A stretch of DNA of 48,846 bases from Bacteroidales bacterium (GTDB lineage Bacteria > Bacteroidota > Bacteroidia > Bacteroidales > UBA932): positions 1 through 48,846 of the forward strand of contig JAFYRK010000114.1 in assembly GCA_017559545.1 (NCBI GenBank). Direction: 5' to 3'. Below, piece after piece: positions 8,594-46,491 of this stretch; position 1 is the stretch's first letter; every line of letters starts with the position of its first letter. The notes under the pieces are model-generated. The model saw nothing but the letters and a program-made list of their open reading frames with translations. It was not told the DNA's origin and did no database searches. Both the position numbers and the translations under genes were made by a program.

Positions 8594-9124
8594 TTAGATA
8601 AACAGTCTGAAATGCCAGAGTATCACGCCGACTGTGACTGACACATTAAGGGAATGCTTGGTACCGAACTGTGGCACCTCAAGCGAAAAGTCAGAGGCGT
8701 CAACGACCTTCTGGTCCACGCCTGCCACCTCATTACCAAATACCAGTGCATACTTTTTACCCTTCTCCGGACGGAAAGTATCAAGCATTACCGACTTCAC
8801 CGTCTGCTCGATACTGACAATTTCATATCCGTCCTCCTTAAGTCTGCGTATGGCCTCCATGGTATCTGCCACATGTTCCCATGCCACGCTATCCTCTGCA
8901 CCTAGAGCTGATTTGTGAATATCGGCTGAAGGTGGGACTGCACAGATGCCACACAGCCATATCTTGTCTGCCTTGAATGAATCAGCAGTCCTGAATGCAG
9001 ACCCTACGTTATGGGCGCTTCGGACATTATCCAGCACTACGACAATACCTGATTCAGGCAGATCCTTATATTCGCTGGCTGATATTCGTCCTAATTCTAT
9101 ATTGAGAAGTTTCCTGTTCTGCAT
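8594..9124 (-). CDS. SpoU/TrmH-family RNA 2'-O-methyltransferase
   Basis: 176 residues from the ATG at 9124; the frame could open at a TTG 24 bases upstream, which is less likely. All three SpoU motifs are visible: [16 protein letters not shown] (motif 1, RNA and catalytic Arg), [11 protein letters not shown] (motif 2) and [19 protein letters not shown] (motif 3, the SAM-binding trefoil knot). It lacks the N-terminal L30e-like domain of RlmB and is short like TrmL/TrmH forms. The substrate (tRNA or rRNA ribose) cannot be decided from sequence alone. It is divergent from glyA. Confidence 0.93.
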
Positions 9125-35044: not shown

Positions 35045-35938
35045 CTATAGGCGCACACCTATGCCGCATGTGAATGCGACCGTTTTAAATGAGATGGTGG
35101 TAACGCCTGCATGAAAGGCCAAACGCTTCCATGAGAATATGAGTCCAGCATCAGCAGCAAGGCCCCTGTGAGACCTGTCAGACACAAGAGCCCAAGAACC
35201 ATCTATATCCTCCCACACATATATCCGGTGTCCATATCCTACACCAGCATATGCCGACAAAGCGGGTCTTACAGGTACTAAGACACCGGCTGTCACAAAC
35301 AGATTGCTGATAGTGGAAGCACCAGATGTCCATATTTTACCACTATCCGGAAGGCTTCCGTCGCTCTTGCATTCATAGGAAACAGAAGGAAGCTCATGGA
35401 AATTGCTTCGAAATCTGAGATATCCTCCTATATGCTCATACTTATAACCTGCCATAATTCCATAGGAGAAGTCAGGCATAGATATATCCACAAGGAGATG
35501 AAGTGTGTTTCTAACCTTCGGTGACGAAGAAACATGCTGAATGGTCAAAGGTGCAGCCGGGGGCCCAGTCAGTGAATCTGCCAAGGTAGGCGCCTTCGGC
35601 AAGACGGCCTCTTGCGGCTCATGTGGCAGTTCGCCCGTCGAGAACCACTGACCTATTGCGACAAAACGTCGTCGCTGCACAACAGTCATATCCTGTTCGA
35701 CCTCCTTCAGCTCCTTATTGACAGATACGAATTTATCAAGAAGACACTGCGCCTCATTACGTGATACATGTTCCCCTGCAGCCGCCTTGGCCTTCAGTTC
35801 CAGACACTCCTGGCATAATGCCTCATATTCAGCCAAGCGCACAGATATAGCGTCTAAACTCCTTTCCTGTGCCAATGAATCCAAACCAAGGGCAAAAATA
35901 AGGAGAAGCGTTAAAATATATCCGCATCGTGACTTCAT
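35045..35938 (-). CDS. Exported protein with coiled N-terminal half and probable beta-barrel C-terminal half
   Basis: 297 residues from the ATG at 35938 (signal peptide YILTLLLIFALGLDSLAQ); the nine upstream codons are rejected. Residues about 28-95 are charged and helical (LAEYEALCQECLELKAKAAAGEH), then a Pro-rich link, then about 150 residues of alternating hydrophobic beta strands (LHLLVDISMPDFSYGIMAGYKYEHIGGYLRF ... GIGVRL), ending in a strand as outer-membrane barrels do. No family is recognised. It is divergent from the kinase gene, which suggests a functional link, since the kinase also has a membrane-spanning, envelope-side tail. A TAAATTTG lies only six bases before the ATG. Confidence 0.75.
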   Translation of the reverse strand: MKSRCGYILTLLLIFALGLDSLAQERSLDAISVRLAEYEALCQECLELKAKAAAGEHVSRNEAQCLLDKFVSVNKELKEVEQDMTVVQRRRFVAIGQWFSTGELPHEPQEAVLPKAPTLADSLTGPPAAPLTIQHVSSSPKVRNTLHLLVDISMPDFSYGIMAGYKYEHIGGYLRFRSNFHELPSVSYECKSDGSLPDSGKIWTSGASTISNLFVTAGVLVPVRPALSAYAGVGYGHRIYVWEDIDGSWALVSDRSHRGLAADAGLIFSWKRLAFHAGVTTISFKTVAFTCGIGVRL

Positions 35939-35964
35939 AAGATGCAAATTTAACAAAAAAGGCA

Positions 35965-35972
35965 TATCTTTG
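35965..35972 (+). promoter_or_regulatory. -7 box for the kinase gene
   Basis: TATCTTTG ends 18 bases before the ATG at 35991, the same spacing as before both the first carbonic-anhydrase copy and the last gene of the window. Confidence 0.5.
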
Positions 35973-35990
35973 AATTATATTAATGCCGAC

Positions 35991-37028
35991 ATGTTAGGAC
36001 CTTCAGGATTCTTTCTTCCCACAGGACCGGGAAGCTCGCATCACGAATCTAATGACATTGAACTCATACACTCCTCGGAGAACGGGTTCAGTGAACTTTA
36101 CCGCGTGTGCAAGAACGGAAGATTCTTTGTGTATAAGGCCCTGAAGAATGAGTACAGAGGCAACATTCTTTACGAAAACCTGTTGGACAAGGACTTCAAC
36201 ATAGGTTTCTCGCTCAGTCACAGTGGCGTATGCCAGTATTTCGCAAAGATTGCCCATCCTATTGTTGGCAGCTGCATCGTCATGGAATGGATCGACGGAT
36301 ATACACTCGAGCAGATGATCCTGGAAGGTAAAATCGACAGCAGCTTATGCAAAAAGATCATCTGTGAAATCTGCGATGCTTTGGACTATATCCACAGAAA
36401 GCAGATACTCCACCGCGACCTTAAGCCGGAAAACATTATGATCACACACAATGGTCAACACGTGAAGATCATTGATTTCGGTCTTTCCGATGCGGACTCA
36501 TATAGTACGTTCAAGGCTCCTGCAGGAACACGCCATTACGCTGCGCCCGAGCTTATTGCCGGTGAGAAGGTAGACGCACGATCAGACATATGGTCTCTCG
36601 GAGTGATAATCGATGAGATAAGCAGAAAGTATCGTCATGTGGCATCGCGATGTCGTCAAGAGAACAGGAATAAAAGATACAGTTCAGCCGCTGATATAAA
36701 GAAGGATATCAAGGGCACTGAATTCAGAAGATTCAAGCGCATTGCCCTCATGCTCAGCATAGCTGCTGCCGCTGCAATAACTTATTTCACAGTTATAGAC
36801 ATGGCTCCCGTAGAATTACAGCCACCGACAGAGTCCACCGGCGACACTATCATAGCAGTTCCGGCACAAGTAATCGTACCAGACGAACAGCCAGCCATAA
36901 ATTTGGCGCCACAGCCAAAAGTAAAAGAAAAGCCGGCAGCAAAGCCTTCCGACACGCCACCGGCCGATAATATCGATGCATCTGAGCTGGACCAGCTCTT
37001 TAAAGATGCCGCATCATCTATCCTTTAG
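35991..37028 (+). CDS. Membrane-anchored Hanks-type Ser/Thr protein kinase
   Basis: 345 residues from the ATG at 35991; a much longer frame (from 35718) overlaps the divergent gene and is rejected. The glycine-rich loop is degenerate (SSENGFSELYRV), while the lysine (about K49 in VYKALK), HRDLKPEN (D143), DFG (D162-G164) and AAPEL are intact, so activity is expected. The kinase lobe ends near 245. A transmembrane helix follows (IALMLSIAAAAAITYFTVI, about 248-267) and a Pro-rich outer tail of about 75 residues. Its end overlaps by 11 bases the convergent putative regulator gene. Targets are unknown. Confidence 0.93.
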   Translation: MLGPSGFFLPTGPGSSHHESNDIELIHSSENGFSELYRVCKNGRFFVYKALKNEYRGNILYENLLDKDFNIGFSLSHSGVCQYFAKIAHPIVGSCIVMEWIDGYTLEQMILEGKIDSSLCKKIICEICDALDYIHRKQILHRDLKPENIMITHNGQHVKIIDFGLSDADSYSTFKAPAGTRHYAAPELIAGEKVDARSDIWSLGVIIDEISRKYRHVASRCRQENRNKRYSSAADIKKDIKGTEFRRFKRIALMLSIAAAAAITYFTVIDMAPVELQPPTESTGDTIIAVPAQVIVPDEQPAINLAPQPKVKEKPAAKPSDTPPADNIDASELDQLFKDAASSIL

Positions 37029-37605
37029 TTTCAATATTCAATAGATTGATACCATCATTGCGTCCTGCCACATATGACGGAGTGTATTTTCCATCACGCA
37101 ATATCCTTGATATATATAGCGGATAACCGATGATGATCTCAGAAAGTTCGAACATGTCTCCAGGCAGAAGTTGAGAATTCTCTGAGCACACCACCTCGAA
37201 CAAAAAATCTCCCAGATAATTAAGGCGCACAAGACGATTTGGAGCCCAACCTATGGTCACCTCAACACCAGGTCTCAACTCAGCTACTGTCTGACATCTG
37301 GCAGTAAAGAATGTGGACACAAAATTCTTCGACTCCTTCAGGCTCTCGCAGAAAGCCTTGAAATTCTTATGTCCGACAAATTTTGAAAGGACATCAAGAG
37401 TAGCAATGCGAGGCGTCGGATTCAGGCTGACATAACCCCAAAGTCGCTTCAAGGTTGAGGACGAAATCTGCTCACCAGTCTGATGTTCAATAACAAAGGA
37501 CAGCGACTCGAAATCAGTCGTAGTCGCTATCCTTCGTCCATATTTATTTTCAACCTCCGTCAAGAGGTATGCTAGCTCCGGCATGTTTTTCTGAATCTTT
37601 CCCAC
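37018..37605 (-). CDS. Putative helix-turn-helix regulator
   Basis: 195 residues, no signal peptide. Residues about 30-90 contain ISSSTLKRLWGYV and IATLDVLSKFVGHKNFKAF, a pattern I know from cytoplasmic Bacteroidota proteins of uncertain class that look like XRE-type helix-turn-helix domains. The C-terminal half (GVEVTIGWAPNRLVRLNYLG, then LLPGDMFELSEIIIGYPLYISRI) is beta-rich. DNA binding is an inference. The promoter carries the double TGAAC element shared with the giant lipoprotein gene, so it may regulate itself. Its 3' end overlaps the kinase gene by 11 bases. Confidence 0.7.
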   Translation of the reverse strand: MGKIQKNMPELAYLLTEVENKYGRRIATTTDFESLSFVIEHQTGEQISSSTLKRLWGYVSLNPTPRIATLDVLSKFVGHKNFKAFCESLKESKNFVSTFFTARCQTVAELRPGVEVTIGWAPNRLVRLNYLGDFLFEVVCSENSQLLPGDMFELSEIIIGYPLYISRILRDGKYTPSYVAGRNDGINLLNIETKG

Positions 37606-37640
37606 AAATGTATAAATTATCTTCCAACAAACAATTTATA

Positions 37641-37691
37641 CAAAGTTACAAACCGCCAGCGCAGCAAATCAAGTTCACATTAGTTCATTTG
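37641..37691 (-). promoter_or_regulatory. Promoter with double TGAAC operator, site 1
   Basis: On the minus strand: two direct half-sites, TGAACT and TGAACT, 10 bases apart (within AGTTCACATTAGTTCA on the plus strand, 37672-37687). CTTG follows at the -33 position (37673-37670), then 21 bases, then TAACTTTG (37648-37641). The ATG is at 37605. An A/T block GAAAATATTGA (37700-37710) lies upstream. Confidence 0.7.
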
Positions 37692-37714
37692 GCAGTTCGG
37701 AAAATATTGACTAA

Positions 37715-37774
37715 CATTGCATCACAAATCTGGATGCCGTAGAGTGGAAGGAAGAGCTCTACAACGCGATATAG
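37715..37774 (+). pseudogene. Possible 3' end of a lost gene
   Basis: After a TAA the frame reads HCITNLDAVEWKEELYNAI and stops at a TAG inside a strong plus-strand terminator. There is no start codon and nothing similar upstream. The protein-like text next to an otherwise ownerless terminator suggests a deletion scar. Confidence 0.35.
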
Positions 37775-37806
37775 GTATAGTCGTATATACCCATATCGCG
37801 TTTTTT
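37764..37806 (+). terminator. Terminator with no upstream plus-strand gene
   Basis: ACGCGATAT pairs with ATATCGCGT, continued by GGTATA/TATACC around a short loop, and six Ts follow (37801-37806). The nearest plus-strand gene is the kinase, 736 bases back, behind the opposite-strand regulator gene. Confidence 0.85.
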
Positions 37807-37848
37807 CGTATCTGGAACTTTTATTTAACCTCTTAAAAACCACACATT

Positions 37849-38772
37849 ATGGAAGACAAAAACAGGACAGGAGAAATTGCCATCGGTGCATCAGGAATTG
37901 ACTACAACACCAAAATAGAGGAGCGGATATTTACCATAAGAGGCAAGCAGGTGATGATCGACAAAGATCTGGCACTGCTTTATGGCGTAGAGACCAAGAG
38001 ATTGAACGAGCAGGTAAAAAGAAACATTGAAAGATTCCCCGAGGACTTCATGTTTCAGTTGACTATGGAGGAATGTTTAAGGTCGCAAATTGCGACCTTA
38101 AACCCAGCGCAAGGTCAACACATGAAATACTTACCCTACGCCTTCACTGAAAACGGCATCGCAATGCTGAGCAGTGTGCTCAGAAGCGAGACTGCCATTG
38201 CAGTGAACATCAAAATCATGCGGACTTTCACCCAGATAAGGAAATCAGTATATAAAGAATCCAATCTATTGAATCGGGTAGAGTTAATCGAATATAATCT
38301 GTCAGATATGAGAAAACTACTCATTGAAACCACGGACAAAGTTGATTCCGTTTTCAATAGCATGAAAGACACATCTCCGTTACCCGTCCGAGGTATTTTC
38401 TTCGACGGGCAGATATTCGATGCATATACATTCGTAGCAGATCTCATCCGGAAGGCCTCAAGACGAATCATACTTATTGACAATTACATAGACGACACTG
38501 TTCTGACTCTTCTGGATAAGCGATCTCCTAATACAGCCGCGACCATATACACGGGGAAACTGTCAAAGAGCCTAAAGCTGGATATTTCCCGACACAACTC
38601 GCAATATGCGCCAATAGAGGTCAGGACATTCACCAAAGCTCACGACAGGTTCCTGATAATCGACAATGATCTCTACCTGATCGGAGCATCTATCAAAGAC
38701 CTAGGCAAGAAGTGGTTCGGATTCACACTTATGGAAAACACGGATGCAGATGAGATACTTGGAAGGATATAA
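37849..38772 (+). CDS. ORF6N-domain protein with PLD-like C-terminal region
   Basis: 307 residues. Residues about 20-110 match the ORF6N DNA-binding domain (IRGKQVMIDKDLALLYGVETKRLNEQVKRN, then FPEDFMFQLT and LPYAFTENGIAMLSSVL). A helical linker follows. The C-terminal half carries HDRFLIIDNDLYLIGAS, a variant of the phospholipase-D HKD motif with Arg for Lys and one copy only, so a dimer would be needed for catalysis. Such proteins occur in phage and on accessory islands of Bacteroidota; the function is not established. The gene starts 42 bases after a terminator. Confidence 0.9.
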   Translation: MEDKNRTGEIAIGASGIDYNTKIEERIFTIRGKQVMIDKDLALLYGVETKRLNEQVKRNIERFPEDFMFQLTMEECLRSQIATLNPAQGQHMKYLPYAFTENGIAMLSSVLRSETAIAVNIKIMRTFTQIRKSVYKESNLLNRVELIEYNLSDMRKLLIETTDKVDSVFNSMKDTSPLPVRGIFFDGQIFDAYTFVADLIRKASRRIILIDNYIDDTVLTLLDKRSPNTAATIYTGKLSKSLKLDISRHNSQYAPIEVRTFTKAHDRFLIIDNDLYLIGASIKDLGKKWFGFTLMENTDADEILGRI

Positions 38773-38794
38773 ACTGGGACATGTCTCAATCAAA

Positions 38795-38835
38795 AGCCCG
38801 AAGCATATAGCCTCGGGCTCGTATCATATTTTTCT
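38795..38835 (+). terminator. Probable terminator after the ORF6N gene
   Basis: AGCCCGA (38795-38801) pairs with TCGGGCT (38813-38819), and a T-rich tail follows near 38830. Also near 38868-38880 is AGTGCG-A-CGCACT, a compact inverted repeat of unclear use. Confidence 0.6.
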
Positions 38836-38904
38836 AAAGCACTGACACTAAATCAGTTAAACGAATAGTGCGACGCACTTTGGGCGTCCGACTTTACTCA
38901 AAAA

Positions 38905-39078
38905 CTAGCTAAGTACCCTTAGATTATAAACCTGTCCAGCATTCCAATTACATGTTACAGAACTGGTATGTCCGCAGCTTGAACAGAACACATGTCCGCC
39001 ACATGTATTCTCTGGAATCTCCATTCTTAAAACACGACCACATTTGTGGCAATTCACATAAACAACTTCTTTTTTCAT
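38905..39078 (-). CDS. Small zinc-ribbon protein
   Basis: 57 codons: begins MKKEVVYVNCHKCGRVLRME and continues through GGHVFCSSCGHTSSVTCNW to YNLRVLS. Two CxxC pairs (CHKC and CSSC, about 20 residues apart) form a likely zinc ribbon. Such small ribbons often accompany ribosome, RNA or membrane-associated systems; no target can be given. It follows the 59-codon gene on the same strand, and both lie just downstream of the giant lipoprotein gene, so they are probably on its transcript. The ribbon and its codon pattern make it unlikely to be a chance frame. Confidence 0.8.
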   Translation of the reverse strand: MKKEVVYVNCHKCGRVLRMEIPENTCGGHVFCSSCGHTSSVTCNWNAGQVYNLRVLS

Positions 39079-39134
39079 AATAATTGTACATTATGGTCCA
39101 TAATTTAAAAGGACCTGTTAGACTACTGTTCCAT

Positions 39135-39314
39135 TTAATCTGGAATAATTTTTATAGCTCCGTTTATCACTTCTGATAAAGAGATTATCTGTCCATCCTC
39201 TGTTTCAACCATCGGAGGCTCTCCGCCAATAAATTTAAAACGAAGTCTTGTACCATTTGAGTAGATAACTACATACCACAATCCTAATTCAAACTTTACG
39301 TTAATTTCATTCAT
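39135..39314 (-). CDS. Small protein of unknown function (59 residues)
   Basis: Begins MNEINVKFELGLWYVVIYSN and ends NGAIKIIPD. It is beta-rich with an amphipathic pattern, has no signal peptide and no cysteines. The ATG lies 32 bases after the stop of the giant lipoprotein gene on the same strand, and the next small gene follows after 56 bases. I do not recognise a family. It is short but protein-like throughout, with a clean stop. Confidence 0.7.
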   Translation of the reverse strand: MNEINVKFELGLWYVVIYSNGTRLRFKFIGGEPPMVETEDGQIISLSEVINGAIKIIPD

Positions 39315-39346
39315 AATAATACTTTTTAAGGGGTTATTTAATATAT

Positions 39347-42300
39347 TTATAAAGCGCGAACAGCACGAACTTTGAACGTATTCTCTTTAAGAAAGTTGCC
39401 CTGACTCTCACCACTTGACAAACTCACAGCGAACGCAATGTCATTCCTGTAAGACACATCTTGATTAGACCAATACCAACCTTCAAGTGTCACACCTGTT
39501 TTAGACAAGATGGCATTGATTTCTCCCTTATTTACGTAAATTGTTTTCAACTGATTAACCGAAGGATATAACCAACCATCGCCATATGATAAACACCATT
39601 CTCTTGCAGCATACCAACTTAAAGACTGCTCATCGCAAGACATAAGCAACCCAGTAGCACAGATAATACCACTAGCATTGGATGTCGCACCTATTGGGGT
39701 AATGTAGGAACCTAGAATATAAGATTCACGTAATGCAGTACCATTACTGTCCACAAAGTTAAAATTGTGATTTACATACAGACATCCTCGATAAGAATTG
39801 AAGTCACCCCACATATAAGCGAGTGACAATAATTCATTGTTAATCAACGATATTACACTTAACCCAGTATTCTCCACCAAATTAATCTCCGAGATAGAAA
39901 GTCCATCTGCATAGAGAGTTTCAAGAGCTGTGTTGCTCTTTAGATTAAGAGCAGTAATGTCAACATTGTTACTCATGCGTAAATCCTTGAGTGACGTATT
40001 GCTACGAACATTGATTGCTGAGAGTTGGTTGTCGCTGACCCAAAGGGTTTCAAGTGCAGTATTGTTTGCTACCTTGAACTGGGTGAGATTATTGCCATTT
40101 ACCTTCAAAGTCACAAGACCAGTGTTATTGTCAACGTTGAGCTTAGCCAACTGGTTTGATGAACAGTCGAGGGTGATGAGTTCTGGATTTGAGTCCACAT
40201 TCAGGGTCTGGAGGTTACCGCCGTGAAGGTCGAGCACAGTGAGACCTGAGATATCTGAAACGTCTGTTCCCTCAAGAACTGAGCAACCGTATGCATGAAC
40301 CTCTTTGAAATATGGGCTCAAAGAGAGGTTGGTCAAAGCTGTGTTGCCATATCCGTTGAACACATCTATGTTGTCGTTAGACAGAACATTGAGATCTGTG
40401 AGCACTGAGCTATTAACTACAGTCAATGTCTTGAAGGGAGTATTTGCCACTGAGAACTTCAGTGATGCAGCCTGATCATAACCATTAACAGAGATGGTTG
40501 TACCGCTAACTGCGTTAGTTGAAACGTTCTGCAGGAAGAGTGACTGTAGCACTGCGCAGTTAGTAAGATCAAGTACCTCTACAGGGTTACCGTAGCATGA
40601 AAGTGATTCAAGCTTAGCCAAGGTGTGACAATCTACCACCTTAATATTGTTGTTTGAGCAGTTGAGATACACAAGGTTTGTGCATGACTCCAATCCTGTA
40701 AGGTCTGAGATTCCTTTGTTTGCACAGTTGACTGTGGTAACATTGTCTGCCTCAGCAATGCTGATGACTCCGTCGTAGTCGTCATCGTAGTTTGCAAGCA
40801 TATAGGTTTCCAATGCCTTATCTGGGAACACGAGACCGCCAGCGTTGAAAAATACATTTGTTGCATTATCTTTCTTGATTGTCATCTGCTCCTGATGTGC
40901 TGCATCCTTCACCCAAAGTTTAGCAAGGGAAGCATTGTCAGAGCAATCAACAGAAGCCAATGCAGAGTTTGCACTTACATCAAGGGATGCCAAATCATTA
41001 CCCGAGCAGTTCAATGTCTCAAGAGCCTTCAACGCTGTGAGGTCAAGAGTTACAATAGAGTTATCTGAGCAGTTCAATGTCTCGATAGACTTGCAGCCAT
41101 TGAGGTTAAGAGTGGTCAGAGCGTTCTTAGAGCAGTCAAGCATTGTGATCTTGCCACAGTTGTTGAGATATAGGCTTGTCAAAGAGTTTGAACGGCAGTA
41201 AACCAACTCCAGCTCTGTGTTCTTGTTCAAGTTCAGAGTGGTGAGTTTGTTAGACGAGCAGTCAAGTTCCTTCAGGGCTGTATTCTTTGAAAGATCAAGA
41301 ACAGTCAGACTGTTTGAGCGACAATAAAGAGTCTCAAGAGCAAGGAGATTCTTAAGGTTCAGGGTTGCGATATTGTTACCGCTACACTGAAGGTTTACGA
41401 GAGCCTTGTTGTTTGTAAGATTAAGAGCACCAAGGTCATTGTTTGAGCATGCAAGGTCAGTCAAGCCTACTGCCTCACTTACGTCCAATGTTGTAAGCTT
41501 GTTTCCAGAGCACTCCAAAGACACAAGTGCAGAACATCCAGAAAGGTCAAGGGTCTTGAGCTTATTGTTATTTACAACTACTTCTGTCAAAGCATTGTTA
41601 TGAGAAAGGTCAAGACTTGTGAGGCTGTGATATGCAGCATTGAGTGTCTTGAGGTTCTTCATATACTCGACTCCTGCGAGAGTGGCAATCTTAGTTGTGA
41701 CGTCAGACAAGTCAATTGACTCGATTTCCATAGCCTCATCTTCTGAGATTTCTCCGTCAGAGTCAGCATCAAAGTTCTCTACAAGATATGCCTTGAATGC
41801 AGCATCAGGAACATAGATAATATCTGTTGTCCATGGAATCATGTTGATATAGTCAGATGCAAGCTCATTATTACCGTCAGAAACGACAAGACATGCATTC
41901 GCAGAGATACGTCCAAGATAGAAATCATCGCTGAGATCTGCACCGGATGCGACAACTGTAAGCACGCCGCCCTCAGCTGTTACGCTGATAATCTCCATAT
42001 CAACAAAATCAACTGCGGCACGTGTCTGTGTGTGAACCGCCTTCATTGAAAGAGCATCTTCCCATACATCAGCAAGCTCATCAGCAGTTGCAGCAGGCTG
42101 GAGCTCGAAGTCAAATGTAGCTGAACCTGGAGTAATCTTTCCATTATTAGTATAGTACATAGTAGCTTTTCCATCTGAGTACTTAGGTATATACTCAATA
42201 GACTGTATTCTGGCAAGGATTGCTTCTATCTGATCTTGGATATCAGATATCTCAATCTGCATATTGTAGATAGATGTCTTGATAGACTTGATATCCTTCT

Positions 42301-43843
42301 CGCAAGCGGCAACCCTTGCTGTGAGAGCCTCGATTGCAGCATTGATTGTTGCCACTTCAGTATCAATGCGCGAGTTCAATGTCTCAACCTCTGCAGCAAT
42401 CTGTCCTGAAAGTTTACCGTCAAGAGTTGTGATGGCAGTGCTGATGGCAGCCTTATATGCCTCTGTGATTTCTTCTTTGGTTGCCTGGAGCTGAGCCTTA
42501 AGATTTTCAATTTCCTGAGCGTTGGCTGCAATCGCTGCTCCATTATTGTAAATAGCAGTAGCATTCTGAGCGATCAAAGATGCATTGGCTGCAATGTCTG
42601 CTGCATTTTCAGCGATAGCCTCTGCATTGGCTGCTATTGCTGCCTCTGCTGCTGTTGCACGACTCTTAAGAGTCTGTATTTCAGCCTGATTTGCCTTGAT
42701 AAGAGCATTATTATCATCAATGAGCTTCTTATTGGCATCAATATCTTTCGCATTATCAGCTATGAGTTTTGCGTTAGCCCTGATTGATTCTGCATTTGCG
42801 GAAATAGCACTTGAATTAGCCGCAACATTTCCGGCAACTGTCGCAAGCTCGCCGGAAAGAGCTGAAAGACTGCCATTAAGTTCATCAATTGCCGCACCAT
42901 TATCATCTATACGTGCTGTCAATGTCTGCTCCAAAGACTCTATCAGACCCATAAGATAGGTCTTCTGGCTTTCAAGCTGAGTCTCCAGACTGCTCTTTAA
43001 AGAAGAAAGTTTTGAATCAACCTGAGTCGCAGTGTAATACTTGGCAAGTTGAGTGTTTACCCAAGACTTCATATTTGTCTCAGATGTTGCAATTGCAGAT
43101 TTGATTTCAGCTTCGTAAGCTGCGGTAATCTCTTCTTTTGCAGAATTGATAGCGGCAGAGCAGTCTTTTGCCACTGCCTCAATCTCTTCCTTCATAGAAT
43201 CACGAAGACCAGCTGTCGCTGTAGCAAGCTCCTCTGCGACCTTTGCTTTGACAGTGGCATCAATATTAGTTATAGAAGAATTCAGCGTCTCTATCTGTGC
43301 CTGTATTCCTGAAACAATCTCCGCTAACGCATTGTAATTCTCAAGCGTAGCAAAGGTTGCAGACGCCCAATCCTTAGTATTCTTAATTTCGTCGTTGACA
43401 TAAGTCTTCAACGACTTGATCTGATTCTCAAGAGCGACCTTCTGGGCCTGCAGATCTGCGATAGACGTATTGATGGAATTCAGTTGTTCTGACACCAACG
43501 TTTTATACTCATCCAGAGTTGCAAGAATCTGTACCTTTTGTGCGTCCAGGTTGTCCTTTAACTCACTCTCAACATCCTCTATCTTCTTTTCAACTGAAGA
43601 CAAAGACTTCTCCAGCTCAGTTGCCTGAGTCTGAAGTGCAGTAATATACCCCTGTAACTGTGTATCCATTCTTTGCATATCCAGAATGGACGTACTGATT
43701 GAAGCCACCTGTTCAGACACAGTGGCAATCTTTTCATTTTCAATCTTGTCTACACGATTGTTAAGGTCATCTATCTCATCATTGTAACACGAGACAGAAA
43801 CAAGACAAAGCCCCATCAGGGCAGCAATTAGTGAACGTTTCAT
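39347..43843 (-). CDS. Giant coiled-coil and leucine-rich-repeat surface lipoprotein
   Basis: 1498 residues. Lipobox LVSVSC (Cys19). Residues about 22-575 are a very long coiled coil with heptads and NA/AANA-type repeats (SANAESIRANAKLIADNAK), like a stalk. A beta region follows at about 580-680. Two leucine-rich-repeat blocks, about 728-1000 and 1045-1330, use a 21-residue unit of the form LTxLDLSxNxALxxLxCSxN; each is preceded by VPDAAFKAYL/FPDKALETYM and an EF-hand-like loop (DADSDGEISEDE near 691-702, DDDYDGVISIAE near 1020-1031). The C-terminus (about 1360-1498, ending FKVRAVRAL) resembles DUF1566/Fibrobacter-type domains. A surface adhesin or ligand-capture fibre is inferred. The promoter carries the double TGAAC operator. 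Confidence 0.9.
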   Translation of the reverse strand: MKRSLIAALMGLCLVSVSCYNDEIDDLNNRVDKIENEKIATVSEQVASISTSILDMQRMDTQLQGYITALQTQATELEKSLSSVEKKIEDVESELKDNLDAQKVQILATLDEYKTLVSEQLNSINTSIADLQAQKVALENQIKSLKTYVNDEIKNTKDWASATFATLENYNALAEIVSGIQAQIETLNSSITNIDATVKAKVAEELATATAGLRDSMKEEIEAVAKDCSAAINSAKEEITAAYEAEIKSAIATSETNMKSWVNTQLAKYYTATQVDSKLSSLKSSLETQLESQKTYLMGLIESLEQTLTARIDDNGAAIDELNGSLSALSGELATVAGNVAANSSAISANAESIRANAKLIADNAKDIDANKKLIDDNNALIKANQAEIQTLKSRATAAEAAIAANAEAIAENAADIAANASLIAQNATAIYNNGAAIAANAQEIENLKAQLQATKEEITEAYKAAISTAITTLDGKLSGQIAAEVETLNSRIDTEVATINAAIEALTARVAACEKDIKSIKTSIYNMQIEISDIQDQIEAILARIQSIEYIPKYSDGKATMYYTNNGKITPGSATFDFELQPAATADELADVWEDALSMKAVHTQTRAAVDFVDMEIISVTAEGGVLTVVASGADLSDDFYLGRISANACLVVSDGNNELASDYINMIPWTTDIIYVPDAAFKAYLVENFDADSDGEISEDEAMEIESIDLSDVTTKIATLAGVEYMKNLKTLNAAYHSLTSLDLSHNNALTEVVVNNNKLKTLDLSGCSALVSLECSGNKLTTLDVSEAVGLTDLACSNNDLGALNLTNNKALVNLQCSGNNIATLNLKNLLALETLYCRSNSLTVLDLSKNTALKELDCSSNKLTTLNLNKNTELELVYCRSNSLTSLYLNNCGKITMLDCSKNALTTLNLNGCKSIETLNCSDNSIVTLDLTALKALETLNCSGNDLASLDVSANSALASVDCSDNASLAKLWVKDAAHQEQMTIKKDNATNVFFNAGGLVFPDKALETYMLANYDDDYDGVISIAEADNVTTVNCANKGISDLTGLESCTNLVYLNCSNNNIKVVDCHTLAKLESLSCYGNPVEVLDLTNCAVLQSLFLQNVSTNAVSGTTISVNGYDQAASLKFSVANTPFKTLTVVNSSVLTDLNVLSNDNIDVFNGYGNTALTNLSLSPYFKEVHAYGCSVLEGTDVSDISGLTVLDLHGGNLQTLNVDSNPELITLDCSSNQLAKLNVDNNTGLVTLKVNGNNLTQFKVANNTALETLWVSDNQLSAINVRSNTSLKDLRMSNNVDITALNLKSNTALETLYADGLSISEINLVENTGLSVISLINNELLSLAYMWGDFNSYRGCLYVNHNFNFVDSNGTALRESYILGSYITPIGATSNASGIICATGLLMSCDEQSLSWYAAREWCLSYGDGWLYPSVNQLKTIYVNKGEINAILSKTGVTLEGWYWSNQDVSYRNDIAFAVSLSSGESQGNFLKENTFKVRAVRAL

Positions 43844-43878
43844 GGTTGTATAGTAATTTCATTGATTTCAAAACCAAA

Positions 43879-43928
43879 CAAAATTACCACACGGTTATCC
43901 ATCAATCAAGTTCACATTAGTTCATTTG
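43879..43928 (-). promoter_or_regulatory. Promoter with double TGAAC operator, site 2
   Basis: On the minus strand: TGAACT, four bases, TGAACT (plus-strand AGTTCACATTAGTTCA, 43909-43924), then CTTG (43910-43907) and, 20 bases on, TAATTTTG (43886-43879). ATG at 43843. The 25-base core at 43904-43928 is identical to that at site 1 (37667-37691). The A/T block GAAAATATTGA recurs at 43935-43945. Confidence 0.75.
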
Positions 43929-43956
43929 AAGAGTGAAAATATTGATCACGACTTGA

Positions 43957-44204
43957 ACAATTATAGAAAGAGGTCTAGAAATTCCATTCGCTTTGTGGAT
44001 GACTCGATGAGGAAAGGACTTCTACCAACTTTGCAACGAGTTCAACCTCTATCTTAGGGCCAAGTATATATCACTTGACTCATTTGAACCGTTGTGAACT
44101 TGACCGGCGGTCATTATCAACTTAATTTTGTCAAAGAAATATTAAAATCAGGCAATATAAACTTCGACTCAACAAAAGAACTTGATGCCTTCAAGCCATC
44201 ATAA
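43957..44204 (+). pseudogene. Possible degraded plus-strand coding remnants
   Basis: In one frame, protein-like text ends FALWMTR, a TGA, then GKDFYQLCNEFNLYLRAKY and on to SFEPL before a TGA at 44095-44097. A second frame opens at GTG 44094 and reads VNLTGGHYQLNFVKEILKSG onward to KELDAFKPS, ending at TAA 44202-44204. No family is recognised. The second part overlaps the site-3 promoter, so at most one of the two readings is functional now. Confidence 0.3.
44081..44130 (+). promoter_or_regulatory. Promoter with double TGAAC operator, site 3 (divergent)
   Basis: On the plus strand: TGAACC, four bases, TGAACT (44085-44100), CTTG (44099-44102), 20 bases, then TAATTTTG (44123-44130). It diverges from the giant lipoprotein promoter and points toward the genes at 44419 and 44908, leaving a leader of about 280 bases. 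Confidence 0.65.
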
Positions 44205-44418: not shown

Positions 44419-44814
44419 ATGAAAAAACTATGTTTCATTCTAGGAGTTTTATTTTTAACATCTTGTTATGGAAATTACCGTCAAGGTGGCGAATCATCCA
44501 ATTCAACGACTACTAACGATTACAACAATGAAGTGAATGAGCCAGTGTACGAGGTTCATCAACATACCACTAATTGTGTTAGCATATATTGCGACGATGG
44601 TTACTCCTACAAAGATGTCTATGTTAAAAATGTCTGTGACCACATGATCAATAGCGTAAAAATAAAATATAGATGTGTTCCAGAAAATCCCATCTCTCCT
44701 GGTGTTAGCACTGCGACATTTAATCATTTATCTCCAGGTAAAGCAGAGAGGATTACATTGAGTTGTAACGGACATGAAGTATCTGTTATAATTCAAGATA
44801 TCATTATAAAATAA
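44419..44814 (+). CDS. Small lipoprotein of unknown function
   Basis: 131 residues. Signal peptide LGVLFLTSC (lipobox, Cys16), a Ser/Thr/Asn-rich low-complexity stretch (about 20-40), then a beta-rich domain with five cysteines (CVSIYC, VC, RC, SC), which suggests disulfides outside the cytoplasm, ending VIIQDIIIK. No family recognised. It lies 93 bases before the WG-repeat gene on the same strand, so they may share a transcript started at site 3. A/T content is higher than in the housekeeping genes. Confidence 0.75.
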   Translation: MKKLCFILGVLFLTSCYGNYRQGGESSNSTTTNDYNNEVNEPVYEVHQHTTNCVSIYCDDGYSYKDVYVKNVCDHMINSVKIKYRCVPENPISPGVSTATFNHLSPGKAERITLSCNGHEVSVIIQDIIIK

Positions 44815-44907: not shown

Positions 44908-46491
44908 ATGCGCCGAACATATACCACTTTGATTATAATCTTGGCAATAGCGCTTATCGCAGGCTTTGTTGTTCTTAAAAGAAAGACAACCCCTATTTGG
45001 GTCGATAGCACTAGCAGTAATGGGTTGACCATGGTCATGAATAGAGATAATATGTATAATTTCGTAAATGAGTATGGTTCGAGAATTACATATATGTATA
45101 AATATTCTGACGCTATGCCATTCTGCGAAGGATATACATTTGTCAAGATGGGGGAAGCAGACACGTGGACAATGATAGACACTAAAGGCAATTGTGTTGG
45201 TAATTGTAATTTTAATGAAGTAAAGCCGTTCAAAAATGGATATGCTTGGGTCAAGACTGATGATGGCAGTGCTAATCTTATAGATACAGGCTGCCGACTT
45301 GTTCTTCCTCAGGGGCAGTATATAGACGTGGATCAGGATGTTCATGATGACGTGATAATCGTACAGAATTATGATGGATTATATGGTTATGCAACCACTG
45401 AAGGACGAGAGATTATCAAGCCTGCTTACAAGCATGTTGAACCTTTCACGCATGAACTTGCGCAGGTTAAGTCCGGTGAGTATATGACCATAATAAACAG
45501 TAAGGGTGAGCAGCTTTGTCCGGCTATATTTGCGGGGTTTGAAATCACTGAGGATGCAGTATTTCCATACATAGATGAGTATGAGGATAAATATGGGCAT
45601 AAGTCTGACAGAAAATTATACGGCGTAATGACCAAAGAGGGCAAATGGCTGCTCCCGTGCTGTTTTACCGAGTACAAAGCACCTTCCGAAGGTGTTGTGA
45701 TAATGGCCGTTCAAAACTCTTCAGTCTCAGATCGATACTATAAATACTTTTCCATGACTGATGGAAATGAACTATTCAATACATCCTTCAAGAAAGCCAC
45801 TCCTTTTAAAAACGGTAAAGCAAGAGTCGGCTGGCCTCATGATGAATATGATCTAGACCTTCAGGGTAATGTTGTGATTGACGAAAATGAAAGATGGCTA
45901 TTAGGTACATGGGTGTCCACTATGGATGCACTAGGATATTCAAAGATCAGATTTACTCCAGGTGGTAATGTTGCCCTCTCTTTTTATGCTCCATATTCTT
46001 CTTATTCATATGGAGGCGGTTATGGTACATTCACTGCAAATAGTAATTCCGTTACCCTTAGACTGGAAGATGGTTCTGAATTTTGCGAAGTTATTTCACC
46101 TACTTCTATGACGATGGGAAAGCATCATCTTACCAAGATAGAAGATTACAAGGGATCTCCGAAAAACAAGTATCTAAACAAATACACATACACAGAAGAA
46201 ATGTATAAAGCCAATCCTTGGAAAAGGAATGTATCTCAATGGTATATAGGACAATGGAGTGATACAGAAGGAAACAGGGCTGTAATTACTGAAGATGAAT
46301 TTATCTATACAGTGAAGGGAGGAAAGACAGAAAGGACAAAATACTTGGTATCAGGACCAACTGTCAAAGCTACTATTAGTGGATATGGCCACTTTACCTT
46401 GGTACAAAGCTCCATGGTTATAAAGGTAAAACCTGAGTCGGGAGGACGTTATAGTTCTTGGTCAATGTATTTAGAATCCGCAGCAAAATAA
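44908..46491 (+). CDS. WG-repeat-containing membrane-anchored protein
   Basis: 527 residues. One N-terminal membrane anchor (TLIIILAIALIAGFVVL) with no lipobox, then WG-type repeats such as GYTFVKMGEADTWTMIDTKGNCVG, GYAWVKTDDGSANLIDTG, ELAQVKSGEYMTIINSKGE and LYGVMTKEGKWLLPC, about residues 50-330. The last 190 residues hold two lipocalin-like stretches (WLLGTWVSTMDALGYSKIRFTPGG; WYIGQWSDTEGNRAVITEDEF). It is likely an envelope protein facing the periplasm. Ligand unknown. It is A/T-rich with rarer codons compared with lysS or parC, consistent with an accessory origin. Confidence 0.85.
   Translation: MRRTYTTLIIILAIALIAGFVVLKRKTTPIWVDSTSSNGLTMVMNRDNMYNFVNEYGSRITYMYKYSDAMPFCEGYTFVKMGEADTWTMIDTKGNCVGNCNFNEVKPFKNGYAWVKTDDGSANLIDTGCRLVLPQGQYIDVDQDVHDDVIIVQNYDGLYGYATTEGREIIKPAYKHVEPFTHELAQVKSGEYMTIINSKGEQLCPAIFAGFEITEDAVFPYIDEYEDKYGHKSDRKLYGVMTKEGKWLLPCCFTEYKAPSEGVVIMAVQNSSVSDRYYKYFSMTDGNELFNTSFKKATPFKNGKARVGWPHDEYDLDLQGNVVIDENERWLLGTWVSTMDALGYSKIRFTPGGNVALSFYAPYSSYSYGGGYGTFTANSNSVTLRLEDGSEFCEVISPTSMTMGKHHLTKIEDYKGSPKNKYLNKYTYTEEMYKANPWKRNVSQWYIGQWSDTEGNRAVITEDEFIYTVKGGKTERTKYLVSGPTVKATISGYGHFTLVQSSMVIKVKPESGGRYSSWSMYLESAAK

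Follow-up and report, generated by a model that had tools for sequence, protein, structure and literature searches.

Among described systems, regulators of the PhoB/OmpR and LytTR types are among the closest to the arrangement analysed here, which consists of three direct TGAAC repeats, each set against a promoter, and of a gene for an unnamed protein of up to 195 residues. All of these lie in contig JAFYRK010000114.1 of a Bacteroidales bacterium (UBA932 lineage; assembly GCA_017559545.1), and the whole stretch of 48,846 nucleotides is called the window. Pho boxes stand in for the -35 element. They are composed of two 11-base direct repeat units that are bound head to tail in tandem, and an interaction with sigma has been reported (PMC4415409, available sections). 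In LytTR systems, direct repeats of 9-11 bases, about 11-13 bases apart, precede the -35 or -33 element closely, at a distance of 4-11 bases from the promoter, and positive-feedback autoregulation is described; in the LRS-like operons of Bacteroides, repeats precede a TATCTTTG promoter (PMC6193735, available sections). FimS/FimR of Porphyromonas gingivalis has been described in the control of fimbriae (PMC1974823, available sections).

The window shares with the PhoB/OmpR type direct repeats about one helical turn apart near the -35/-33 element, and head-to-tail binding is proposed here as well. It differs in its period, which is 10 rather than 11, and in its neighbour, which is a serine/threonine (Ser/Thr) kinase gene and not a histidine kinase gene; moreover, a Pfam search with 58 members of the protein's family, for which 19 Pfam families were listed at E up to 1, gave neither a Trans_reg_C nor a receiver domain. 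No LytTR domain was found in that search at the same threshold, and where LytTR repeats measure 9-11 bases, the window has words of five bases, 10 apart from start to start, that abut the -33 element. With FimS/FimR the locus would share the control of fimbrial surface proteins in Bacteroidales, but FimS/FimR is a two-component system, whereas here a Ser/Thr kinase gene stands beside that of an unnamed small protein. The system would work like the known direct-repeat activators, yet none of the domains that define those families and were tested for is present.

We propose that the TGAAC tandem repeats are putative operators to which the 195-residue protein binds. It would do so as two protomers in head-to-tail order, placed on the same face of the DNA at a distance of one helical turn; the second half-site directly adjoins the -33 element, and the -7 box TAnnTTTG follows about 38 bases after the start of the site. 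The bound protein most likely helps RNA polymerase, so that its own gene and surface-lipoprotein genes nearby would be expressed more strongly, while the adjacent Ser/Thr kinase most likely sets the activity of the regulator, perhaps via Ser96. Sequence comparison bears out that the repeats exist, that their geometry is fixed and that they are linked to a gene family and to surface genes; binding, head-to-tail arrangement, activation and phosphorylation are what we infer. It is very probable that this protein reads the repeats as its operator and fairly probable that it is an activator, and to the two together we assign a probability of about 0.58.

Repeats, promoters and the genes behind them

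The initial annotation had described three sites of the form TGAACY-N4-TGAACTTGA with TAnnTTTG 20-21 bases further on, and all three are present exactly in that form, with -7 boxes 21, 20 and 20 bases after CTTG. Exact matches to TGAACYNNNNTGAACTTGA occur in the window at these sites (operators 1 to 3, table 1), and allowing up to two mismatches adds no other site, where 0.32 matches are expected and none of 100 shuffled sequences reaches three. In the genome as a whole (2.13 Mb, 69% complete) they are also the sole exact matches, and the reversed-pattern control gives none. A -33 element about 20 bases before TAnnTTTG, as in Bacteroidales promoters of the type whose sigma factor we take to be sigma-ABfr, is found at the three window promoters and at 70 of the 79 sites compared below. 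The Bacteroides -7 site is given as TANNTTTGY (PMC12632263, available sections), and the promoter elements at the sites fit this type.

Sites 1 and 2 have an identical 25-base stretch in common, and GAAAATATTGA had also been reported upstream of both. It is indeed present (37700-37710 and 43935-43945), but the two copies lie 8 and 6 bases beyond the common 25-mer and are therefore out of register, and the consensus of related sites shows no conservation from -25 to -4; as a part of the operator it was rejected. It is perhaps a relic of promoter duplication.

Conservation was assessed in homologue loci, the best 80 of 557 confirmed relatives on named genome contigs (1.33 Mb), all of them found via one peptide pattern and sharing species with the genomes denoted G below. 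The pattern TGRAC-N5-TGRAC[TC][TG] matches 76 times in 49 of the 80 loci, and its reversed control twice. Including the three window sites and three double registers (L089, L097, L102), 79 site rows result, 70 of which have a -7 box (at least 5 of 6 letters) at +38 (65) or +39 (5), compared with 1.3% of random places; together these 70 give the consensus AaaTGAACcAatgTGAACTTGAtt-N17-TAt.TTTG. Half-sites, TTGA and -7 box are well conserved over the 79 sites, and spacers and flanks differ; G replaces A in both half-sites of some sites and in one half-site of others. The -33 TTG is nearly invariant in the TGAAC clade, where the pattern allowed two choices for each of its first two letters. In ordinary promoters of the fetched loci, TTG stands at the -33 spacing of 68 of 287 strict -7 boxes versus 10 of 287 random places.

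Motif and protein also go together between genomes. Among 61 relatives, TGAAC-N5-TGAACTTG occurs in 10 genomes (15 matches; reversed control 0) and the protein in 17, with both on one contig in six; no homologue was found in four of the 10 motif genomes (G012, G036, G004, G030). The genus was represented by 200 genomes. Of these, 25 have the strict motif (39 sites; reversed control 0), and 78 encode the family according to a search at E 1e-10 whose profile of 21 members took in distant paralogues; the family is present in 22 of the 25 genomes with the motif versus 56 of the 175 without it (Fisher p 1e-7). A family gene lies on the same contig, 39 to 8,832 bases away, for 31 of the 39 strict sites; for four more the genome carries the family on a different contig, and the last four belong to genomes without it. 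Across the order, the strict pattern occurs in six of 247 genomes (reversed control 0), namely that of the window and five with single matches and atypical spacers, which are taken as chance.

Enrichment of the sites had been predicted in front of surface lipoproteins and of homologues of the 195-residue protein, and among the sites of the homologue loci both are seen. In 35 of the 79 rows (32 distinct genes) the site precedes a regulator gene, 42 to 114 bases before its start, a position that supports the suggested autoregulation by the 37018-37605 product. Eighteen rows precede an open reading frame (ORF) with a strict lipobox (two flagged as inside a long ORF), 24 precede another ORF (three flagged), several of these with visible lipoprotein signals that the strict rule missed, and two have no ORF behind them. 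The sites are not located mostly inside genes or at the ends of mobile elements, which would have counted against a regulon: eight of the 79 rows are flagged inside a long ORF, two of these in front of the regulator gene itself.

Twenty chosen proteins behind the sites, several of them from one operon, were compared with Pfam, and matches were obtained for 7 of 10 at E 0.01 in the first set and for 8 of 10 at E 0.001 in the second. The domains are fimbrillin-like Mfa_like_1, BspA-type and other leucine-rich repeats (LRR), Big_2, BACON with M64 peptidase, and DUF4988 with collagen repeats, a few of the matches falling below Pfam's own cut-off. In G023 and G011 the operator heads a same-strand gene run in which the regulator is located downstream. 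In G017 (L051:154-7612) it heads a same-strand run with CxxC-rich proteins that ends in a PP2C phosphatase gene, and regulons may therefore include signalling besides surface genes.

The STLKRLWGY family and its repeat words

The family is characterized by the STLKRLWGY segment, the motif G-W-x-P-[ND]-R and an invariant Ser96, all of which the window protein has in alignments of 21 and 58 members; distant members vary the first segment, for example to SESTLER. Ser96, which lies between two parts of the protein, is at most a candidate phosphate acceptor. No sequence family of Pfam, NCBIfam, PHROG or the PDB fits the window protein or its family. When 21 members were used, a Csm6 chain matched best among PDB sequences (48 residues, E 0.0049), and this likeness was discarded, being gone with 58 members, whose best PDB match has E 0.38. 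The N-terminal region of the family also heads proteins of about 830 residues (L057:2583-5057 and L058:1077-3575), which suggests that it is a domain of its own; the L058 protein gives a weak NACHT match below the cut-off (E 2.2e-4), and the L057 protein gives no Pfam match. In the literature searched, TLKRLWGY was not found in any text, which is not proof that the family is unpublished; a TGAAC direct repeat with a Bacteroides promoter gave no match, and other searches gave only analogues or nothing relevant. The members are small, probably DNA-binding proteins of a so far unnamed family in gut bacteria related to Bacteroides.

From 293 loci with 181 unique family proteins, 140 representatives were taken (at least 150 bases upstream, less than 80% identity), of which 47 are near (at least 49% identity to the window protein) and 93 distant. 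In a word-free repeat test (7 of 8 matches), offset 10 is the peak both in near members, with 17 of 47 (1 and 2 in two shuffles), and in distant members, with 33 of 93 (8 and 8); offset 9 also stands out in the distant members (19 of 93). Identical NRRRC words stand at offset 10 in 41 of the 140 representatives; the counts for 16 other offsets range from 0 to 7. The control ORFs were drawn from the 80 loci and are plain ATG ORFs of at least 200 codons, not curated genes; they have such a pair at offset 10 in 13 of 916 cases when the 37 of 953 with an upstream TGRAC pair are dropped, and in 46 of 953 when these are included. The NRRRC class was chosen after looking at examples, and it is the offset comparison and the control ORFs that carry the test.

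The window protein has a period-10 direct repeat upstream of its gene, and in distant members the words are AAGAC, AGGAC, AGAAC, TGGAC, TGAAC or AGGGC. Counted in the orientation of the repeat, a -7 box stands at +38 or +39 in 21 of 24 near-member repeats and at +39 or +40 in 7 of 20 distant-member repeats, with three more (L120, L153, L270) roughly a turn beyond, at +48 to +50; a -7 box, where there is one, thus mostly lies in helical phase with the repeats. The spacing itself varies in the family, as repeats with period 11 and the word TGGAC are present in G034 (L053:1188-1205 and 1385-1402) and G595 (L255).

It is very improbable that the sites arose by duplication of a single promoter segment and have no regulator of their own. 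The 25-base stretch and GAAAATATTGA common to sites 1 and 2 are what such an origin would leave, but among the 79 sites the spacers and flanks differ around the conserved elements, and the period-10 rule holds for unrelated words.

The window genome (G000) contains, on contig C32 (L056), another family member beside AAGAC-N5-AAGAC repeats. One repeat separates the member from a BspA-type LRR gene that is divergent to it, and another precedes genes for a kinase, a VWA protein and a PP2C phosphatase (L056:7151-7165, 8652-8666); -7-like boxes lie about 40 bases from the site start, and a further kinase gene adjoins the regulator. The AAGAC pair occurs twice in the 14 kb of this locus versus three times in the 1.33 Mb of TGAAC-clade loci. 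One genome, G032, has members with TGAAC, AAGAC and AGGGC; in these comparisons the repeat word follows the paralogue and not the genome. Upstream of the AAGAC member there is also a single TGAACTTGATT half-site (L056:7174-7184, minus strand), a possible case of cross-regulation or of chance.

These observations bear on the question of whether some other DNA-binding protein reads the repeats, with the 195-residue protein as a partner or modulator encoded beside them. On the one hand, the protein has no recognisable DNA-binding family, and the genes of a kinase and of a membrane protein are linked as strictly. On the other hand, 32 regulator genes have a site directly in front of them, the period of 10 persists in distant members whose words are different, and paralogues within a single genome have different words. 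An ORF6N-domain gene divergent from the regulator (37849-38772), the closest other gene of a regulator-like kind, was rejected as the source of the reader, having homologues in 0 of 88 related loci. A separate reader is therefore decidedly unlikely, and the 195-residue protein is preferred in this role.

Activation weighed against repression

Several points weigh against an activating operator read by this protein, and the first of them concern binding. The strict motif occurs without the family in G036, G633 and G653 (4 of the 39 sites). A strict period-10 word was not found in 99 of the 140 representatives, which may have diverged half-sites, another spacing (some 9 or 11) or an operator elsewhere in the operon. 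Pfam gives nothing significant for the 58 members. XRE proteins mostly bind inverted repeats, and the likeness to XRE/HTH_3 consists of a predicted order of segments around STLKRLWGY that resembles the XRE helices; the alignment by hhalign of the N-terminal part with XRE domains is weak, although in the expected register (probability 4.3%, P 0.0096; 0.2% for the C-terminal part as control), and the XRE profile was made after 12 of 29 stretches, which ran into a stop codon, had been dropped. There is no Pfam match to XRE/HTH_3 either, and no family or profile test establishes the helix-turn-helix that had been suspected in the 195-residue protein.

The correlation between protein and word has to be read with similar care. 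The residue before STL (position 48 of the window protein) is E or D in all 11 members with AAGAC; the 29 with xGRAC have S, A, T, P or I there, and the one with AGGGC has E. Residue and word agree in 40 of 41. When the tree is built with these columns left out, it shows a single change of the residue and two of the word, and for this reason covariation of protein and DNA was rejected as independent proof. The association is a clade difference, consistent with direct readout, which it may suggest but does not prove.

The other points concern activation. The near-invariant -33 TTG of the TGAAC clade does not look like part of a crippled promoter. A third repeat lies between -33 and -7 in two regulator promoters (L097:9931-9955, L102:5717-5741), and in those of L085, L086 and L091-L093 the TGAAC word recurs 10 bases further on, also between -33 and -7; such third copies suit repression, at least of the protein's own gene. 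A repressor would bind the same repeats, cover the -33 element and block RNA polymerase, resulting in negative autoregulation and a silenced surface operon that the kinase releases. The overlap of the second half-site with the -33 element and the near-consensus TTG and TAnnTTTG of the TGAAC clade are equally in keeping with this. However, blocking needs neither a fixed distance to the -7 box nor the helical phase seen in distant members, and TTG at spacer 19-21 is missing from all seven distant repeats with the -33 geometry (in L032 it stands at spacer 18). It is the near-fixed distance between operator and promoter, the half-site at -33 and these seven repeats without TTG at that spacing that favour an activator in contact with RNA polymerase, like PhoB on Pho boxes and LytTR proteins on their repeats (PMC4415409, PMC6193735). 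We put activation against repression at about two to one, and repression, though it has real points in its favour, is on the whole unlikely.

If the protein is an activator, a self-activating switch on surface lipoproteins would provide a mechanism for all-or-none surface coats. To our knowledge, the control of surface adhesins and fimbrillin-like proteins in uncultured gut Bacteroidales is largely unknown. As operator and regulator can be read together from sequence, regulons become predictable in many genomes, the specificity of paralogues can be compared with their operator words, and natural targets can be proposed for a conserved group of Bacteroidales Ser/Thr kinases. There is an even chance, in our estimate, that the family represents a large unrecognised class in Bacteroidales, made up of kinase-coupled regulators that each read a paralogue-specific five-letter word twice, one helical turn apart and against the -33 element; they would provide several insulated self-activating switches per genome for surface coats and signalling operons, and their N-terminal domain would also be found on NACHT-like ATPases.

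Kinase, probable targets and other neighbouring genes

The regulon proposed in the initial annotation is largely supported; it did not include the kinase and the membrane protein as conserved neighbours, nor the wider family, in which other words are repeated. A kinase homologue is present in 78 of the 80 homologue loci and within 5 kb of the regulator in 77, the exceptions being L085 and L086, where none was found, and L065, where it is 10.6 kb away. Among the 22 loci L121-L142 (Bacteroides, Phocaeicola, Prevotella and others), 17 have the kinase behind the regulator and equally oriented, with a match that starts 574 to 680 bases after that of the regulator; the kinase of L124, a locus of Bacteroides acidifaciens DSM 15896, has a Pkinase match. 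This conserved linkage makes coupling of the regulator to the kinase slightly more probable than its absence. The kinase ORF of the window spans 35718-37028, and its start was taken at MLGPSGFF (table 1).

Table 1. Features of the TGAAC repeat locus in the window
Feature	Position	Strand	Evidence and remarks
Possible outer-membrane barrel protein	35045..35965	-	OMP_b-brl E 0.011, below Pfam cut-off; homologue in 73 of 80 loci
Ser/Thr protein kinase, convergent with regulator	35991..37028	+	Pkinase E 3.2e-38; HRDLKPEN and DFG motifs; hydrophobic stretch near C terminus
Regulator candidate, unnamed STLKRLWGY family, up to 195 residues	37018..37605	-	ORF; start possibly about 37584
-7 box of promoter 1, TAACTTTG	37641..37648	-	Starts 39 bases after site start, 21 after CTTG
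Operator 1, TGAACTAATGTGAACTTGA	37669..37687	-	Exact match; before regulator gene; same arrangement at 32 distinct regulator genes including that of the window
57-residue ORF, perhaps co-transcribed	38905..39078	-	Two CxxC pairs; no relatives in 88 loci; LysW-like match weak, below cut-off
59-residue ORF behind lipoprotein gene, perhaps co-transcribed	39135..39314	-	No relatives in 88 loci
Coiled-coil/LRR lipoprotein, 1,498 residues, putative target of operator 2	39347..43843	-	LRR_4 E 1.7e-26; lipobox
-7 box of promoter 2, TAATTTTG	43879..43886	-	Starts 38 bases after site start, 20 after CTTG
Operator 2	43906..43924	-	Exact match; before coiled-coil/LRR lipoprotein gene
Operator 3, TGAACCGTTGTGAACTTGA	44085..44103	+	Exact match; 334 bases before lipoprotein gene at 44419
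-7 box of promoter 3, TAATTTTG	44123..44130	+	Starts 38 bases after site start, 20 after CTTG
131-residue lipoprotein, probable target of operator 3	44419..44814	+	Lipobox; no relatives in 88 loci
WG-repeat protein, possibly on the same transcript as 44419-44814	44908..46491	+	WG_beta_rep E 2.4e-23; no relatives in 88 loci

The giant lipoprotein of the window has a relative in L109 with 45% identity over 1,575 aligned positions, and an operator is located in front of that gene as well. Control of the divergent lipoprotein and WG-repeat genes had also been proposed; a site does stand in front of them, but since they have no relatives in the 88 related loci, it is this site by which they are counted in the regulon.

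The GTG start of the 37018-37605 ORF overlaps a second TAnnTTTG, TACATTTG (37605-37612), and a second box of this type is also found in the nearest relatives (L063, L066-L069), which hints at a second promoter or a later start codon. Judging from the starts of homologues, translation may begin at the ATG of MPELAYLL, near 37584.

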